A stretch of 7,989 nucleotides of DNA from Acidobacteriota bacterium (GTDB lineage: Bacteria; Acidobacteriota; Terriglobia; UBA7540): contig JAKAWN010000320.1 in the NCBI GenBank assembly GCA_021827245.1, positions 1 through 7,989 of the forward strand, given 5' to 3'. This document shows positions 264-6,315 of the stretch, piece after piece. A program made the position numbers and the translations under genes. Under the pieces are notes generated by a model. It was not told the DNA's origin, searched no databases, and was given only the letters and a program-made list of their open reading frames with translations. Each line of letters opens with the position of its first letter. Position 1 is the first letter of the stretch.

Positions 264-1727
264 TCATACGGAGAAGGCCCGCTGATTCAAGGCTCGATAG
301 GTCTTAAATCCAGCCTCATAGATTTCCTTGTTGCGAATATTCGGGTGGAACGTTGCCGAGGGATGAACCATGGCGTTTACCGCTGCCCGGATATTTGGGA
401 AAAGCCCCCTTCCCGTCGCGGCGAGCACAGCCGCACCCAGGCAGGTCGCTTCTTCACAGTGTATCGTTCTTATTTCGCGCTGCAGCACGTCGGCTTTGAT
501 CTGCAGCCAAAGCTTGCTGCGAGCACCTCCGCCGAGAGAAGTCATCTCTTGGCAAGCGACGCCAGATCGCAGCAATAGTTCGATATTATCGCGAAGCGCG
601 AAGGAGACACCCTCAAGAATGGCTCTGATAAAATGCGCTTTTCGGTGTGCCGTCGAGATTCCCCAAAACACGCACTGTGCTCTAGGATTGACTTCGGGTG
701 AATTCATCCCGCTGAAATGGGGCAACATAATAAGCCCGTCGCAGCCCGGAGAGACTGTCGCTGCCCGAGCATCTAATGCAGAGTAGTCTATCCCCTCACC
801 AAATTCGTCTCGGAACCAGCGCAAGATCATTCCTGCCGTCGGAATCCATGGCATCAGAAGGAACAGACCGGGCACTCCATGTCGGTAGATCGGAATACGC
901 ATCTCGGGGTCATAGACAGGACGCGCGACCGTCGCGCAGACTGCAAGCGCGCCACCGGTTGTCTCTGTTACCAGCCCCGGTGCAATATTCCCGGCGCCAA
1001 CCGCGGCGGCCACCTGGTCGATGGGGGCAACCGTGACTGCAGTCTCATGGCTCAGGCCGGTCTCTGCGACAACGCTTCCTGCAGACGCTCCAGAATTCAG
1101 CAGTATCGGGAGCTGGCAAGGGGAAACACGGAGGAAGTCGAGCATTCTTTCCCACCAGCATCCGTTACGCAAATCATAATAAAGTGTCGATGGGTTCAAA
1201 GCGTGATCGGTGGCGAAGGTCCCGCTCAGGCGGTAGATCAGGTAGTCTTCCAGCATGAGAAACTTGCCGGTAGACCTGAATACTTCTGGCTCGTGCTCCC
1301 GCAGCCAAACCATTTTGGCTGCAGGCCAAGCCGGAACGATCTCTTGCTGTCCGGTCATCCGATATACTAGGTCGCGCCCGAACTCCTTTCTGATTGCTTC
1401 AGCCTCAGCTTTGGCCCGGTTGTCCAGCCACACGATTGCCTTGCGAAGCGGTCTACCTTGCTTGTCCAGAACGATCAGGGTCTCTCCCTGGCCGGTTACA
1501 CCCAGGGCGATAATAGCCGCCGGATCTACGGCTGTTTTCTGTAGAATATTTGCGATTACAGTCTTCGCAGCAGACCAGTAAACCTCTGGATCAAGCTCAA
1601 CGATGTCCGGCTCCGGGTTCTCCAACTGATACTCATGAGCGCAAACGCCCAACACCCTTCCGGAGAGTTCGAACAGCGCCCCTTTCAACGAAGTGGTGCC
1701 CGCATCCAATGCCAGAATCAAGCTCAT
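264..1727 (-). CDS. FGGY-family carbohydrate kinase (xylulokinase-like)
   Basis: The 487-residue protein has the normal full length of the family, which phosphorylates sugars or polyols with ATP in the cytoplasm. Visible signatures are the N-terminal phosphate-binding LALDAGTTSLKG (residues 5-16), GVTGQGE (76-82), WLDNRA (100-105), a candidate catalytic Asp at 237 in APIDQVAAAVGAGN, the LPHFSGMNSPEVNP block (335-348) and the second ATP-site motif SLGGGARSKLWLQIKADVLQ (397-416), followed by EEATCLGAA (425-433). All these are intact, so the enzyme should be active. The pattern is closest to xylulokinase and related ketose kinases, but FGGY substrate specificity cannot be read from sequence. The ATG lies only seven bases after the stop of the degraded upstream gene, and no strong Shine-Dalgarno is seen, so translational coupling was probably the original arrangement. 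Decay of the upstream gene may therefore affect its expression. Confidence 0.93.
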   Translation of the reverse strand: MSLILALDAGTTSLKGALFELSGRVLGVCAHEYQLENPEPDIVELDPEVYWSAAKTVIANILQKTAVDPAAIIALGVTGQGETLIVLDKQGRPLRKAIVWLDNRAKAEAEAIRKEFGRDLVYRMTGQQEIVPAWPAAKMVWLREHEPEVFRSTGKFLMLEDYLIYRLSGTFATDHALNPSTLYYDLRNGCWWERMLDFLRVSPCQLPILLNSGASAGSVVAETGLSHETAVTVAPIDQVAAAVGAGNIAPGLVTETTGGALAVCATVARPVYDPEMRIPIYRHGVPGLFLLMPWIPTAGMILRWFRDEFGEGIDYSALDARAATVSPGCDGLIMLPHFSGMNSPEVNPRAQCVFWGISTAHRKAHFIRAILEGVSFALRDNIELLLRSGVACQEMTSLGGGARSKLWLQIKADVLQREIRTIHCEEATCLGAAVLAATGRGLFPNIRAAVNAMVHPSATFHPNIRNKEIYEAGFKTYRALNQRAFSV

Positions 1728-2498: not shown

Positions 2499-3866
2499 CT
2501 AGTATCCATATTCTTTTTCTACTTCGGCGATAGATTCCTCGATGATATCCATCCCTTTCGCGGCAACATCAACCTCCATGACAATGGGCGGGGACATTCT
2601 CAAGATGTGCCCGGCGGGGACCCACGCTAAGCCCTTTTGGAATGCGCGTTGATAAACTCGCTGTCCCGCCTCGATGAAAGGTTCCTTCGTAACACGATCT
2701 TTCACCAGTTCAATCCCAAGAAGGCAGCCCATGCCGCGGACATCACCAATGATCGGATGAGCTGACTTCATGGCAGCCATGCGCGTGTTGAAATATTCAC
2801 CGAGAACCAGCGCATGTTCCAAAAGACCTTCCTCCTCGATCGCTTCAATACTGGCCAGAGCTGCTGCGCATGCCATTGGATTTCCCCCGTAGCTAGTCGA
2901 GGCAGAAATCTTGCCGATGCTGTCTTTGTACTTTTCAGCGACAAGTACTGCCGTAACCGGAAAACCATTTCCCAAACCCTTGCCGAGCGTGGCAACGTCT
3001 GGACGGGTGTCCCAGTGTTCAAGACAAAAGTATTTGCCCGTGCGACCCATTCCAGTTAGAACTTCGTCGGCGACTAGTAGCACGCCTCGTTGATCGCACA
3101 AGTGACGCAGTTTTGGGAAGAAGTCACCGGGCGGCACGATGGAACCAGACCATCCCTGGATGGGTTCTAAGACAAAAGCGGCCACATTGCCTGTCGTTGC
3201 TTTGTTCATGAAATCGTCAAAAAATTGTATATACGCATCAGTATCAATGGATCCGCCATTTTTAGTGAAAAGAGGGCGGTAAGGGTCGGGCCGAGGAACC
3301 AAGTAAAATCCCTGACTGCGCCCCTCTCCATTGGTTCGGTTCATTTTCCCGCAGCTGACCGCATGCCCAGTTTTGCCGTGGAAATCCATATAACATGAGA
3401 TGAATTCAGATTTGCCGGTAGCTGCGCGGCAAACTCGCAACGCCGCTTCGACGGCTGTCGCACCGCTGTCATAAAGCTGCATTCCCGTCAAGTCCCAAGG
3501 CTGAATCGCAGCAAGCTTTTCCAGCAGGGCCACCTTTATTGGCGTATTGAAGTCGTGGCAGTTCATTAGGTTTTTCGCGTGAAAGGCTATAGCTTCGCTA
3601 ACCTTCGGGTGACAGTGTCCCAACGTGGTCACAAATATTCCACTTGAAAAATCAATGTAAGTATTTCCATCAACATCGGTTAGGGTAACGCCGCGACCCC
3701 TCTCAAAAGCAACCGGGCACAGCCTTACTTGACTTGAGTAGCCAACCATGTGGTGCATCCCGCGGCTGTTCAAAACCTCTGATCGCGGTCCAGGGATTTT
3801 GTCGGTGACGATTTTGGGGACGGTTGCGGAATCAACTGAAGCCGATCTTTGGTTTAGAGTCGACAT
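2499..3866 (-). CDS. Class III pyridoxal-phosphate aminotransferase (4-aminobutyrate aminotransferase-like)
   Basis: The 455-residue protein is full length for the class III (subgroup II) aminotransferases, which move an amino group from an omega-amino acid, amine or similar donor to a keto acid, using PLP in the cytoplasm. Visible family landmarks are DVDGNTYIDFSSGI (64-77), the PLP phosphate-binding SGATAVEAA (134-142), DFHGKTGHA with the ring-stacking aromatic (161-169), EPIQGWSG (234-241), the pyridine-nitrogen Asp267 in VADEVLTGMGRTG and the Schiff-base Lys296 in TLGKGLGNGFP. STSYGGNP (323-330) and the C-terminal LRMSPP (422-427) are also there. Everything needed for catalysis is present. 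The exact substrate is not determinable; the best comparison is with GABA aminotransferase and related enzymes of carbohydrate-amine operons. It is the first gene of the leftward operon. No clear Shine-Dalgarno precedes the ATG; instead a GC hairpin lies just upstream, and another gene occupies the place where its promoter would be. Confidence 0.93.
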   Translation of the reverse strand: MSTLNQRSASVDSATVPKIVTDKIPGPRSEVLNSRGMHHMVGYSSQVRLCPVAFERGRGVTLTDVDGNTYIDFSSGIFVTTLGHCHPKVSEAIAFHAKNLMNCHDFNTPIKVALLEKLAAIQPWDLTGMQLYDSGATAVEAALRVCRAATGKSEFISCYMDFHGKTGHAVSCGKMNRTNGEGRSQGFYLVPRPDPYRPLFTKNGGSIDTDAYIQFFDDFMNKATTGNVAAFVLEPIQGWSGSIVPPGDFFPKLRHLCDQRGVLLVADEVLTGMGRTGKYFCLEHWDTRPDVATLGKGLGNGFPVTAVLVAEKYKDSIGKISASTSYGGNPMACAAALASIEAIEEEGLLEHALVLGEYFNTRMAAMKSAHPIIGDVRGMGCLLGIELVKDRVTKEPFIEAGQRVYQRAFQKGLAWVPAGHILRMSPPIVMEVDVAAKGMDIIEESIAEVEKEYGY

Positions 3867-3872
3867 AATGTA

Positions 3873-3885
3873 GGCGCTTAGCGCC
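3873..3885 (-). repeat. Perfect short palindrome just upstream of the aminotransferase start
   Basis: GGCGCT-T-AGCGCC is a 13-base perfect dyad whose near edge is six bases before the aminotransferase ATG (as RNA, five GC-type pairs around a three-base loop). It occupies the position where a ribosome binding site should be. It could be an mRNA hairpin controlling translation, a dyad operator, or an end structure of the neighbouring putative mobile gene. With 13 bases it could also be chance. Confidence 0.4.
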
Positions 3886-3914
3886 GAACATGTAGAAAAA
3901 AATTGTCGATGTTC

Positions 3915-5567
3915 TCAGGCAGCGATTCTGAGTTCCATCAATAGGTCTCGCATATCGGTACGCAGAGTTTGGTAATGCCGGTCGAGCGTCGCGCAGCCCT
4001 TGGGTTTGGGCCCTCTTGGAAGTTGGCAGGCTGCGGCGAGGAGTGGTTTGATGACCTTGTCGCGCAGGACCACCAAAGCGCTCATGGCCCGCAGGCCCTG
4101 GGGCACCGCCTCGTAGCGGCGGGTGGATTCAATCTTGTGAACCAGGTGCTTGACGCGAAATTTCTTCAGGTCATAGGCGGCATGACGAGAGCTATATTCG
4201 TCCTCCGTTTGGCCACTCTGGGCGCGAACCTGGGAAGCCAAGTTCGAGGCGGTGAAGCCGCGCGGGGAACCGGACAGAGCCCGGAGCGCCTCCGTCACCC
4301 GGCGCCTGCGAAGCGGGTGGAAGTTGATTCCTCCCACCCGCGTTTCGCCCATCCGGGAGGGCAGGGGCAGTTGCTCCAGGGTGTCGTCGGCGATAAAACA
4401 GACATCCAGGCCCTGGCGAGCGTTGAGGAAGCGCTCCACCATGCCCCGCAGGAGAGCCACGAGGGTCGGGAAATGGGGCCGGGATCGGTTGCCGGGCAAC
4501 GCCCGGGTGTTTTGCACGATGGCTTCGATGCGCAGGACCCGTTCGCCTTGGGTATAGATCTTCAAGGTGAGCTTGCTGAAATGGACTTTGAACACCGTGA
4601 GATCATACGTAGGTTTCTCGACCCGAACTCCCCAGCGCGTTGGTTGCTTCTTTCTTTTCCGGCAGCCGGGACGCTTCTTACCGCCCAACAAGGTCTTGAC
4701 TTGATCCCGACCGAGGGCGCCTCGATGGCGGTCGATGAGAGCTTGAAACACCTGATCCATCTGCCCGCCCGCCTGAAACAGCAGGTTGCGACTGTACTCG
4801 GTCTGATAAACCGAATACTTATAACGAAAGTTTGTCTTCTCTTGCTCCTCCGAGTTGAGCACGAAACAGAGGCAGGAGGTGTAAATCCAACGCTCGCAGA
4901 CTTGATTCAAGCGCCCTATAGTCCGGGCCTCGGACAAGGTCTCTGCGGCGCCGGCCAAGCCGGCGAGGTTGGAAGCTTGGGTGAAACAGTTATCTTCTTG
5001 GGTCAAGGCCATGGCTTTCTTTCTCGCCCGGCGCGCCACATATTCGTGGCCGTTGAGGAGAATCTGAGCGTTGAAGGGAGGATGGACACACATCTTGATG
5101 GTTACAGGCCCCCACTCCGGATCGAGAATATGGAAGTAAAGATGGTTGACATAAGGCAGAGACTTGGGGCGTGCGATGTCCTGGATCTTGCCGCCCGCGC
5201 TCCGCTCGACCTCCCAGACCGGTGCGGGGGCGCGCCCCATCAGAATCATGAAGACGCCTCGCGCCTTCGGAGGCTGGGTGAGATACTCCCGCGCCAGTTC
5301 GTGCTTCCGGGTTCCCGCCGCGCAGAAGACGACGGGAATGCCTCGGGCTTTGGCGAAAGCGCGAACCCGCCGGCTGAAACGGCCGGCCATGCGCATCAAG
5401 TGAGTGTCATCCAAGGTCCCGTCGCCGCCGTCCAACAACCGCCACCAAGTGCGAAACCCTCCCGCGTTTTGCCCCAGCGGGAAGTAAGCGTTGAGAACGA
5501 TACGGTCCACACAGTCATATTGACCTTCAAGAAGATCGGCGTAATGGTCGCTGAATTGGTCTGCCAT
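3915..5567 (-). CDS. Large protein of unknown function with C-terminal winged-helix; possible mobile gene
   Basis: About 550 residues counting from the ATG at 5567 (the frame allows another ATG at 5591). The later start is preferred because it gives MADQFSDHYADLLEGQYDCV, which resembles the start of a family of unnamed proteins I recall as multi-copy in unrelated environmental bacteria, and because a TATAAT lies nine bases before it. No catalytic family is recognised. Visible parts are an N-terminal region with YDCVDRIVLNAYF and FRTWWRLL; a dense block near 140-182 with VNHLYFHILDPEWG and ILLNGHEYVARR; VCERWIYTSCLCF (about 223-235); YSVYQTEYSRNLLF (251-264); a very basic linker KKRPGCRKRKK (297-307); and a likely winged helix at about 435-485 (GFTASNLASQV, then SSRHAAYDLKKFRVKHLV and a wing STRRYEA). 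The basic linker and winged helix suggest nucleic-acid binding. I see no HUH relaxase, tyrosine-recombinase or obvious DDE signature. Codon and base composition appears more GC-rich than the adjacent aminotransferase, and it sits where that operon's promoter should be, both consistent with insertion. Confidence 0.78.
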   Translation of the reverse strand: MADQFSDHYADLLEGQYDCVDRIVLNAYFPLGQNAGGFRTWWRLLDGGDGTLDDTHLMRMAGRFSRRVRAFAKARGIPVVFCAAGTRKHELAREYLTQPPKARGVFMILMGRAPAPVWEVERSAGGKIQDIARPKSLPYVNHLYFHILDPEWGPVTIKMCVHPPFNAQILLNGHEYVARRARKKAMALTQEDNCFTQASNLAGLAGAAETLSEARTIGRLNQVCERWIYTSCLCFVLNSEEQEKTNFRYKYSVYQTEYSRNLLFQAGGQMDQVFQALIDRHRGALGRDQVKTLLGGKKRPGCRKRKKQPTRWGVRVEKPTYDLTVFKVHFSKLTLKIYTQGERVLRIEAIVQNTRALPGNRSRPHFPTLVALLRGMVERFLNARQGLDVCFIADDTLEQLPLPSRMGETRVGGINFHPLRRRRVTEALRALSGSPRGFTASNLASQVRAQSGQTEDEYSSRHAAYDLKKFRVKHLVHKIESTRRYEAVPQGLRAMSALVVLRDKVIKPLLAAACQLPRGPKPKGCATLDRHYQTLRTDMRDLLMELRIAA

Positions 5568-5576
5568 GGCTGCCGG

Positions 5577-5582
5577 ATTATA
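5577..5582 (-). promoter_or_regulatory. -10 box giving a leaderless or near-leaderless transcript
   Basis: A perfect TATAAT on the minus strand ends nine bases before the ATG at 5567. With normal spacing the transcript would begin within a few bases of that ATG, so there is no room for a Shine-Dalgarno, and none is seen. The expected -35 region contains no good TTGACA, so the promoter is either extended/activated or fortuitous. If real, the upstream ATG at 5591 cannot be the start because it would precede transcription. Confidence 0.45.
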
Positions 5583-5621
5583 CGCCAGCATTCTGTGTTT
5601 CGGCTGCCCTGGCAGGGGCCA

Positions 5622-5649
5622 CTTTTTCTGAGCGAAGTCTCAGAAAAAG
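5622..5649. repeat. Perfect 11-bp inverted repeat (palindrome) upstream of the unknown gene
   Basis: CTTTTTCTGAG (5622-5632) and CTCAGAAAAAG (5639-5649) are perfect reverse complements around the six-base CGAAGT. The T-run precedes and the A-run follows the stem on both strands, the reverse of a rho-independent terminator, so termination is unlikely. It lies about 40 bases upstream of the TATAAT of the unknown gene. Its position suits an operator bound by that gene's own winged-helix protein, or an end-recognition palindrome of a mobile element. Confidence 0.7.
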
Positions 5650-5658
5650 CGTAGTACC

Positions 5659-5749
5659 TTTGAAATTGGATTCTGTTCTTTTGTGGCAGAATATTTTTGA
5701 CCACTATGAGTTGGCCCTGTGTTGATGCACCTTTGAAGGCAATTTCAAA
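5659..5749. repeat. 10-bp inverted repeat pair TTTGAAATTG / CAATTTCAAA
   Basis: TTTGAAATTG (5659-5668) and its exact complement CAATTTCAAA (5740-5749) bracket 71 bases. The same area carries a direct repeat ACCTTTGAA (5656-5664 and 5729-5737), and the second copy can also pair locally with TTCAAA (5744-5749) around a six-base loop. No gene is seen between the arms. Repeated AT-rich half-sites suggest protein binding or remnants of element ends. The function is unknown. Confidence 0.5.
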
Positions 5750-5773
5750 TCGGTCCAACTTCCCTGTTTGGTT

Positions 5774-5882
5774 CCGGCTACGCCGGGTTAGGTTAAGCAG
5801 GTATGGTCGGTGCGAAGCGATGAGATGACCTCGCCGAGAATGGGCAGCGCCGTGTCATTTCTTCACGCCTGCTTGACTTGAC
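5774..5882 (+). ncRNA. Candidate structured RNA (nested inverted repeats with G-U pairs)
   Basis: Reading the plus strand, a short hairpin CCGGC-TAC-GCCGG (5774-5786) is followed at once by a 15-pair helix between 5787-5801 and 5868-5882. Three of its pairs are G-U (5794/5875, 5791/5878, 5789/5880) and none is a mismatch. Inside it, GAGATGAC (5822-5829) pairs with GTCATTTC (5854-5861) using one more G-U, and GA at 5819-5820 can pair with TC at 5863-5864 beyond one mismatch. All four imperfect pairs are allowed only if the plus strand is the RNA; on the other strand they become A-C mismatches. The outer arms consist of two tandem pentamers each (GGTTA twice, TTGAC twice), which raises the chance of coincidental pairing. 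It lies 54 bases before the small membrane protein gene and could be its leader or an independent small RNA. No known RNA family is recognised. Confidence 0.35.
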
Positions 5883-5923
5883 GTAACTGCACTTGCTAGC
5901 GTCTGTCTTTTCGCCAGCGGGAG

Positions 5924-5928
5924 AGGAG
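5924..5928 (+). promoter_or_regulatory. Strong ribosome binding site fixing a GTG start
   Basis: AGGAG within GAGAGGAGAA lies eight bases before the GTG at 5937. This spacing decides for GTG at 5937 rather than the immediately following TTG at 5940, and is the main evidence that the very small downstream frame is a real gene. Confidence 0.65.
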
Positions 5929-5936
5929 AACTTTTT

Positions 5937-6119
5937 GTGTTGAGGCGGTGGCTCGATGATCATTTTAAGTTGGTGGGAACCTTCCTTTTAATTCTCGCTG
6001 TTTTGAACGGCTGGATTTCCTACACGATCTTTCCTGAGCATCCCATCATGGCTTTGGCAAATGGAGCGATGGCGGCAATGCTCGCCCTGGGAGTGATCCT
6101 TTCTTGGCGATCACAATGA
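5937..6119 (+). CDS. Small two-helix membrane protein (60 residues)
   Basis: GTG start with a strong ribosome binding site. The product begins MLRRWLDDHFKL, a short positively charged cytoplasmic-type end, followed by two hydrophobic stretches long enough to cross the membrane: about residues 12-32 (VGTFLLILAVLNGWISYTIF) and about 38-57 (MALANGAMAAMLALGVIL within it). It ends WRSQ. The FPEHP turn between them would make a tight hairpin with both ends inside by the positive-inside rule. No family is recognised, and the role is unknown. It lies about 200 bases before the RecQ gene on the same strand, so co-transcription is possible but not shown. The alternation of helix and turn and the strong start signal make it a likely true gene rather than a chance frame. 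Confidence 0.68.
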   Translation: MLRRWLDDHFKLVGTFLLILAVLNGWISYTIFPEHPIMALANGAMAAMLALGVILSWRSQ

Positions 6120-6315
6120 ACGGCACGACTGGCCTTCGCCCTAACGATGAAATCGAGTTGTGGAGAGCGCCTCGACAGACGGGCGACGACGGAAGGTCGT
6201 GGATTGCGTGAGTGAAGCGAAAGTCACCGTGGGCCGGACACCACAGGTCGCTGAGCCTGACGTGGCGGGAACAACAGGAAGTCCGTCGAAAGACCCCGTC
6301 CAGCACAAAGCAACG
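6120..6315 (+). other. Spacer between small membrane protein gene and recQ
   Basis: No convincing gene is seen in these 196 bases. The RecQ frame is open from 6151, with a possible upstream GTG at 6160 that would add 52 low-complexity, charged residues without a ribosome binding site. A 31-codon frame from ATG 6116 overlaps the previous stop but has no recognisable content. No terminator or good promoter is visible. Confidence 0.45.

Follow-up and report, generated by a model that had tools for sequence, protein, structure and literature searches.

Several groups of mobile DNA and of replicons resemble in part the system that we describe here. The IS200/IS605 elements have an HUH Y1 enzyme of ~150 aa, hairpins, motif-guided insertion and no inverted repeats, and IS91/ISCR elements and Helitrons (the latter with a 3′ hairpin and a CTRR end) likewise lack inverted repeats, create no duplication and carry the target motif at one end as well; a motif common to the target and one terminus is a trait of single-strand and rolling-circle transposons. 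On the side of replicons, the Rep_trans initiators (PF02486; pT181, pSTK1, ICEBs1) combine, in the parts of their descriptions available to us, a TBP-like fold with ordered YxK and RxE motifs, conserved acidic residues and a tyrosine in a β strand. Here we analysed a stretch of 7,989 nt from an Acidobacteriota bacterium (contig JAKAWN010000320.1 of assembly GCA_021827245.1; hereafter, the window), in which a minus-strand open reading frame (ORF) at 3915-5567 lies within a 1784-bp element that works like IS200/IS605 or IS91 but is a member of neither. We put at roughly 0.68 the probability that this ORF encodes the transposase of a small autonomous single-strand element and that the enzyme is a tyrosine enzyme of Rep_trans-like type. 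The parts of the element, which belongs to the type that we call B, are as follows.

3871..5654, minus strand: whole B-type element, 1784 bp counting CTA at both ends (end motifs found by script; ends defined from relatives)
3915..5567, minus strand: gene of the putative tyrosine transposase, 550 aa (TBP-like part at ~residues 1-390, winged helix at ~395-510; candidate residues D21, D149, Y338, R346 and E348)
5606..5649, minus strand: left-end hairpins, with an 11-bp stem at 5622-5649 and a 5-bp stem at 5606-5619
5652..5660, minus strand: target-like motif AAGGTACTA at the left boundary
3871..3880, minus strand: right-end terminal decamer TAAGCGCCTA
3873..3885, minus strand: right-end mini-hairpin GGCGC-TAA-GCGCC

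The 550-aa ORF is a genuine gene. Its homologues (phmmer matches) follow the minus frame and not the plus-strand antisense frame at 3969-5654, which is open for 561 aa across the entire transposase gene and probably arises from the use of GC-rich codons; with the in-frame ATG at 5591 as its start, the protein would have 558 aa.

That the element family is mobile, as an earlier note on this DNA had suspected, is close to certain from sequence comparison, since near-identical copies occur at unrelated sites. Mycobacterium sp. SM1 has three full copies of the paralogous type A (1846-1847 bp, 99.2-99.6% identical) with mutually unmatched flanks, in addition to A copies that are partial or interrupted. 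A unit composed of A and B is 99.95% identical over 3961 bp at L009 and L010, in two Bryobacterales metagenome-assembled genomes (MAGs), with both flanks unrelated, and a third unit, at L008, has equal boundaries at 70% identity. Short derivatives have spread as well: the left-end motif of subtype A3 occurs 96 times in G011, the 6.4-Mb MAG that contains L034 (0 in the reversed control), 11 times in G014 and not at all in 12 other genomes, and in G011 it marks a ~250-bp derivative resembling a miniature inverted-repeat transposable element (MITE). In an alignment of this derivative 12 of the 13 rows come from G011 and ten have both ends, that of L173 having a variant right end; two G011 rows form a palindromic pair without a right end, and flanks diverge at the derivative ends. 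Rhodococcus plasmids contain another set of A elements, whose ends are of this kind too and some of which have flanks in common. Here L002 and L127 (R. koreensis R85 plasmids) share the element and its right flank for at least 1.5 kb but differ in their left flanks from the left end outward, while L002 and L128 have a left flank in common; these patterns are compatible with one-ended transposition, recombination or a common insertion sequence (IS) neighbour and we did not use them as proof of mobility.

Some further observations concern these genomes. In SM1 there are A copies with other insertions and a dispersed 200-270 bp repeat near several copies (L104, L106; L102, L103), and in G011 fragments of A3-type genes lie at contig edges. 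At L002, L128, L131 and L004, A elements adjoin apparent IS ends at CTA, with flanks that match either sequence common to many Rhodococcus plasmids (IS701/IS5 being named in two rows) or IS110-linked sequence.

The empty sites expected of a mobile element were found in one case. At L021 the element has an oligopeptide-permease gene on one side and an ATPase gene on the other, and in three of nine other genomes of the same family the flank pieces are 59, 10 and 9 nt apart, compared with 1807 nt in the occupied site; two of the three empty sites read TAG-12 nt-ATG and TAG-11 nt-ATG. This junction is resolved to the gene level and not to the exact base, because a repeat of the repetitive extragenic palindromic (REP) kind follows the right end. 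The other five joined flanks gave no match across the junction: for L005, L004 and L002 no plasmid record covered 80% of the query and only single halves matched, for L009 a search of 257 genomes returned its own two halves and one 49-nt match, and for L109 matches in 22 of 249 genomes never crossed the junction. The right end of the L021 element coincides exactly with a palindromic repeat of ~90 nt in G020 whose first letters are CTA (query 421-510); the repeat has at least ~34 other copies in that genome and is possibly a REP-like derivative.

The family is large. Of the 7997 candidates that phmmer scored for the window protein, at least 6110 reached E≤1e-3, and an A-type profile found at least 8000 of 8000, these being counts of 90% clusters in sets that possibly overlap; the statement in the earlier note that similar proteins are scattered in many copies in other bacteria was well founded. 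Among the 240 matches listed none bears the name 'transposase'. The 62 loci in genome contigs include Acidobacteria, Chloroflexi, Planctomycetes, Actinomycetota, Caldithrix, Deltaproteobacteria and one Heimdallarchaeota MAG. (The B-type protein at L038, with 43% identity and a fitting right end, is on a contig labelled Heimdallarchaeota and is either archaeal or contamination.) Occurrence is patchy: at E≤1e-100, B was found in 6 of 257 genomes of one order, two of the six having been picked for having B, and A in 7 of 249 genomes of one family, with A at E≤1e-60 in 2 of 151 genomes of another, each count taking in one or more genomes selected for carrying the gene. Vertical inheritance of a single-copy gene finds no support in such a distribution. 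The phages searched yielded no match, and viral contigs yielded none in one search and one locus in another.

Types A and B, ~21-28% identical, are paralogous, and their association raises the question of whether they could be subunits of one machine, such that only the A+B composite is mobile and solo B elements are its decayed remnants. Among the 52 B loci that extend 900 nt or more upstream, 11 have A immediately before B, within 1 kb and in the same orientation, and so do L057 and L059, which were seen separately from that count; moreover, the composite moves as a unit. However, A elements also exist alone (1.85 kb, with clean ends of their own), a solo B sits in a host operon beside a target-like motif, and 38 of 118 B matches with stated length (50 of 117 for A) come from contigs about as long as a single element (1.7-2.1 kb), as expected of a lone repeated B unit; contigs of more than 10 kb account for 11 B and 16 A matches. 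We therefore regard the two-subunit alternative as unlikely, although it survives better than the others considered below. Passenger genes were observed in A+B loci, namely a four-helix protein of 23S_rRNA_IVP type (L009:584-955) and, between A and B, PDDEXK_3 proteins at L007:2276-2713 and L057:4578-4970; both families are known as unexplained multi-copy genes.

The ends of the B elements are conserved and structured. The left end consists of CTACG followed by an 11-bp hairpin and then a GC-rich 5-bp hairpin, which are the palindromes that had been pointed out upstream of the gene in the earlier note. When 25 left ends are aligned, standard pairs make up 96.5% of 396 cells versus 75.8% after shuffling, 81 cells have changed on both sides versus a shuffled mean of 19.8, and the covariation score is 0.559 versus 0.146 (≤0.161 for slid versions); the measure of further pair types was unremarkable (21 versus 19.8). 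In the window itself the innermost pair of the 5-bp stem is non-standard. G-U pairs account for no more than 2 of the 382 paired cells, and this points to a structure formed by DNA. At the right end the motif nAAGnnn(C/T)TA was found within ~130 nt past the match in 30 of 38 loci as compared with 3 of 115 control windows; the T variant among the 30, at L017, may be a chance match, and the eight misses include L007, which is cut by a contig end, and the near variants L033 and L034. Right-end hairpins are weaker, yet above chance (29 right ends; longest perfect stem 5.66 on average versus 4.08 after shuffling, the highest of 50 shuffles being 4.62). The right ends of L015, L002, L127, L129 and L101 contain short units repeated in tandem a variable number of times (runs of GGGCCTAA; CTACCTAG; runs of CTAAG/CTAA), as if stuttering had taken place at the end during strand transfer or copying.

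The same motif precedes many insertions. A left end was recognisable in 27 loci, 26 of which have enough upstream sequence, and AAG stands 5′ of the left CTA at the offset that gives AAGnnnCTA in 11 of the 18 solo loci (background at offsets 15-94: mean 0.26, maximum 2) and in one of the eight loci with A upstream. The window, L012 and L034 carry A3-type motifs upstream, so that the statistic was suspected of reflecting A-type right ends only; we kept it because a host gene ends 3 nt before L021 and another 24 nt before L028. Since AAGnnnCTA occurs both before the left CTA and at the right terminus, the target and the right end share a motif. Terminal inverted repeats were not seen by inspection of the delimited ends, nor was a repeat pair found at 3871/5654 in window positions 3700-6200.

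Could the element instead move by cut and paste, with a divergent enzyme of the DDE (RNase H-like) class whose acidic triad is drawn from D21, D149, E257 or E348, and with CTA as a target duplication of 3-4 bp? Four near-invariant acidic residues, and CTA or CTAA at both boundaries as a duplication would leave, are in keeping with this. On the other hand, one end has a covarying hairpin and inverted repeats are not seen, the motif common to target and right end exceeds the putative duplication in length, and the left and right tetramers differ in three of nine comparable 250-bp derivatives (judged by eye; the palindromic pair, L161 and L173 were left out). In addition, the RNase H fold is absent among the 50 matches listed in each of two structure comparisons with the PDB, although absence there is no proof. 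We consider a DDE enzyme quite improbable.

What, then, is the enzyme? The description of an unrecognised protein in the earlier note holds, as do the sequence blocks that it quoted, the basic linker (~residues 297-312) and, in the structure model, the C-terminal winged helix. For the window protein there is no Pfam family at E≤1 and a single NCBIfam match with E=0.3, far under the cut-off; IS110, serine or tyrosine recombinase and reverse transcriptase domains are absent from both. The PDB by sequence gave ribosomal S2 only (E 0.37 or worse), PADLOC gave no anti-phage family at E≤0.1 for the window protein and P0122, and PHROGs gave weak matches in 1-5 of 85 family members, the best (E 0.0018) to an unnamed family and one to a 'replication initiation protein' (E 0.078). 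The predicted fold is TBP-like with a winged helix added, and the best meaningful PDB match of the model is the Rep_trans initiator 4cij. In an 85-member alignment Y338, within the predicted strand 333-340, is invariant, as is E348, while D21, D149 and K340 are found in 84, 83 and 82 members, respectively. D21, D149 and E348 appear in Rep_trans order and motif IV reads LRxE; a conserved R two residues before D149 is lacking, the glutamate of the YxKxxE motif is not conserved at Rep_trans spacing, and motif II (T/SxY/ExG) has no clear counterpart by eye in the family alignments; Y338 is a candidate catalytic residue. The enzyme is probably a Rep_trans-like tyrosine transposase, a class not named in the earlier note; of this reading, the chemistry is inferred and the mobility well supported.

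The family nevertheless differs from Rep_trans in having no detectable sequence similarity, a shorter spacing of motifs III and IV and the added winged helix, and in that its carriers are transposons with ends rather than a replicon or an integrative and conjugative element. PF02486 is unmatched by the window protein at E≤1 and is not among the 25 Pfam families listed for the 85 members at E≤0.1; because the family failed this hidden Markov model (HMM) test we have not filed it under PF02486. The Rep_trans HMM had no match in sets of 3 and 198 genomes, with the positive control matching in Bacillus subtilis, and the profile comparison was made against gpII in place of a Rep_trans set. The gpII of filamentous phages (IKe and relatives; Phage_CRI) has the same D..D..KxYxK..LRxE order, but hhalign against six Phage_CRI/gpII sequences was not significant (probability 0.3%, E 0.2) and gpII serves phage replication. 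Another of the closest described systems is Rep-Arvir, a replication initiator of archaeal viruses and plasmids (PMC13107129, 2026), which we liken by its description: it too has a TBP-like catalytic domain, a MarR-like winged helix and a hairpin site beside the gene, and was recognised by fold only, but in the portion of that report accessible to us no transposition is described. The open-access literature that we searched, ISfinder being outside that search, reports no Rep_trans or TBP-fold transposase.

The subterminal hairpins, the insertion 3′ of a short motif that also stands at one element end and the lack of inverted repeats and duplication are held in common with IS200/IS605 and IS91/ISCR or Helitrons, and would suit a distant relative of these with an unrecognised HUH (Y1 or Y2) enzyme. 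The features of the HUH Y1 enzyme and the HUH motifs of the Y2 enzymes were, however, not found in the family: Y1_Tnp and Y2_Tnp are unmatched by the window protein at E≤1 and are not among the 25 families listed for the 85 members, no histidine pair is conserved (position 162 is H in 57/57 B proteins, but Y or F in 28/28 A proteins), and Y338 is in a predicted β strand, whereas HUH tyrosines sit in a helix according to the parts of the literature available to us. An HUH enzyme is thus very unlikely. Least credible of all is that the protein is a winged helix-turn-helix regulator or replication protein carried as cargo and moved in trans by another enzyme, because, even though some sources call relatives ArsR-family regulators and winged helices rank top in one of the two PDB structure comparisons, it is the sole homologue-supported gene inside the 1.78-kb B unit, its invariant tyrosine and acidic residues are outside the winged helix, and both of the paralogous types, A and B, come with ends that match them. 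We rejected the reading as an ArsR regulator because this name suits the winged helix alone.

If the Rep_trans-like tyrosine transposase is accepted, the following mechanism may be proposed. The sequences themselves establish that the ends are defined and structured, with no terminal inverted repeats seen, that one motif, AAG-N3-CTA, marks the right terminus and also precedes many insertions on their 5′ side, and that copies occupy unrelated sites. The TBP-like N-terminal part would be a relative of the Rep_trans initiators of the pT181/pSTK1 plasmids, to which filamentous-phage protein II is similar in its motifs, and Y338, in its β strand, would attack the phosphate that follows CTA on the 3′ side, with D21, D149 and E348 coordinating a metal, while the winged helix and the hairpins would serve end recognition. 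Cuts after CTA at both boundaries would free or peel off one strand, either by excision (IS200/IS605 style) or by replication (IS91/Helitron style). If the right end (..AAGCGCCTA) were joined with the left end (CGCTTTTT..), a circle would result whose junction again reads AAGnnnCTA|CGC, and which could insert after another AAGnnnCTA without target duplication. Because A-type right ends resemble B targets, B elements are often docked behind A and the pair can travel together.

The transposon family is undescribed, and a large unnamed family with a replication-initiator-like enzyme may represent a new way for genes to move. We lean towards viewing it as a new prokaryotic transposon superfamily, present in many bacterial phyla and on one archaeal MAG contig, whose transposase is a phosphotyrosine endonuclease with a TBP fold of Rep_trans type, an enzyme class not seen before in this role, and which has MITE-like and REP-like derivatives and two paralogous types docking on each other's ends. 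A large class of mobile DNA, amounting to thousands of 90% clusters, is at present annotated as 'hypothetical' or as an ArsR regulator because no Pfam (85 members), NCBIfam (window protein) or PADLOC (two proteins) model is convincing. Should the enzyme be Rep_trans-like, HUH is one of two protein folds on which single-strand transposition arose, and it becomes possible to test where the initiators of plasmids, phages and transposons came from. The AAGnnnCTA rule and the tiny derivatives make the system a candidate insertion tool, and such derivatives are a possible source of bacterial REP/MITE repeats.

The surroundings of the element in the window are as follows.

2499..3866, minus strand: host aminotransferase class III gene, context only and outside the element (Pfam Aminotran_3, E=4.6e-96)
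264-1727, minus strand: FGGY kinase, neighbour gene
6316 onward, plus strand: RecQ-like helicase, neighbour gene
5763..5791, minus strand: left-end motif of subtype A3, CTAACCCGG..CCGGAACCAAACAGG (motif search; related 250-bp family in G011)

The element was inserted after AAAGGTACTA and occupies the region upstream of the aminotransferase gene; its right end at 3871 is separated by 4 nt from the ATG at 3866, so that the earlier note was right to see it as wedged against the first gene, and the aminotransferase promoter has probably been displaced by 1.8 kb. An Rfam scan of the window gave no matches. Positions 5655-5762 together with the A3 motif possibly represent a short non-autonomous A-type derivative, on the right end of which the B element would have docked; L034 has a similar layout, in which the B left end comes after the right end of the G011 derivative. 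Lastly, residue 340 of the window protein (4548-4550), two residues past the candidate catalytic tyrosine and K in the relatives counted above, is Q, and given this substitution the window copy of the transposase may be impaired.
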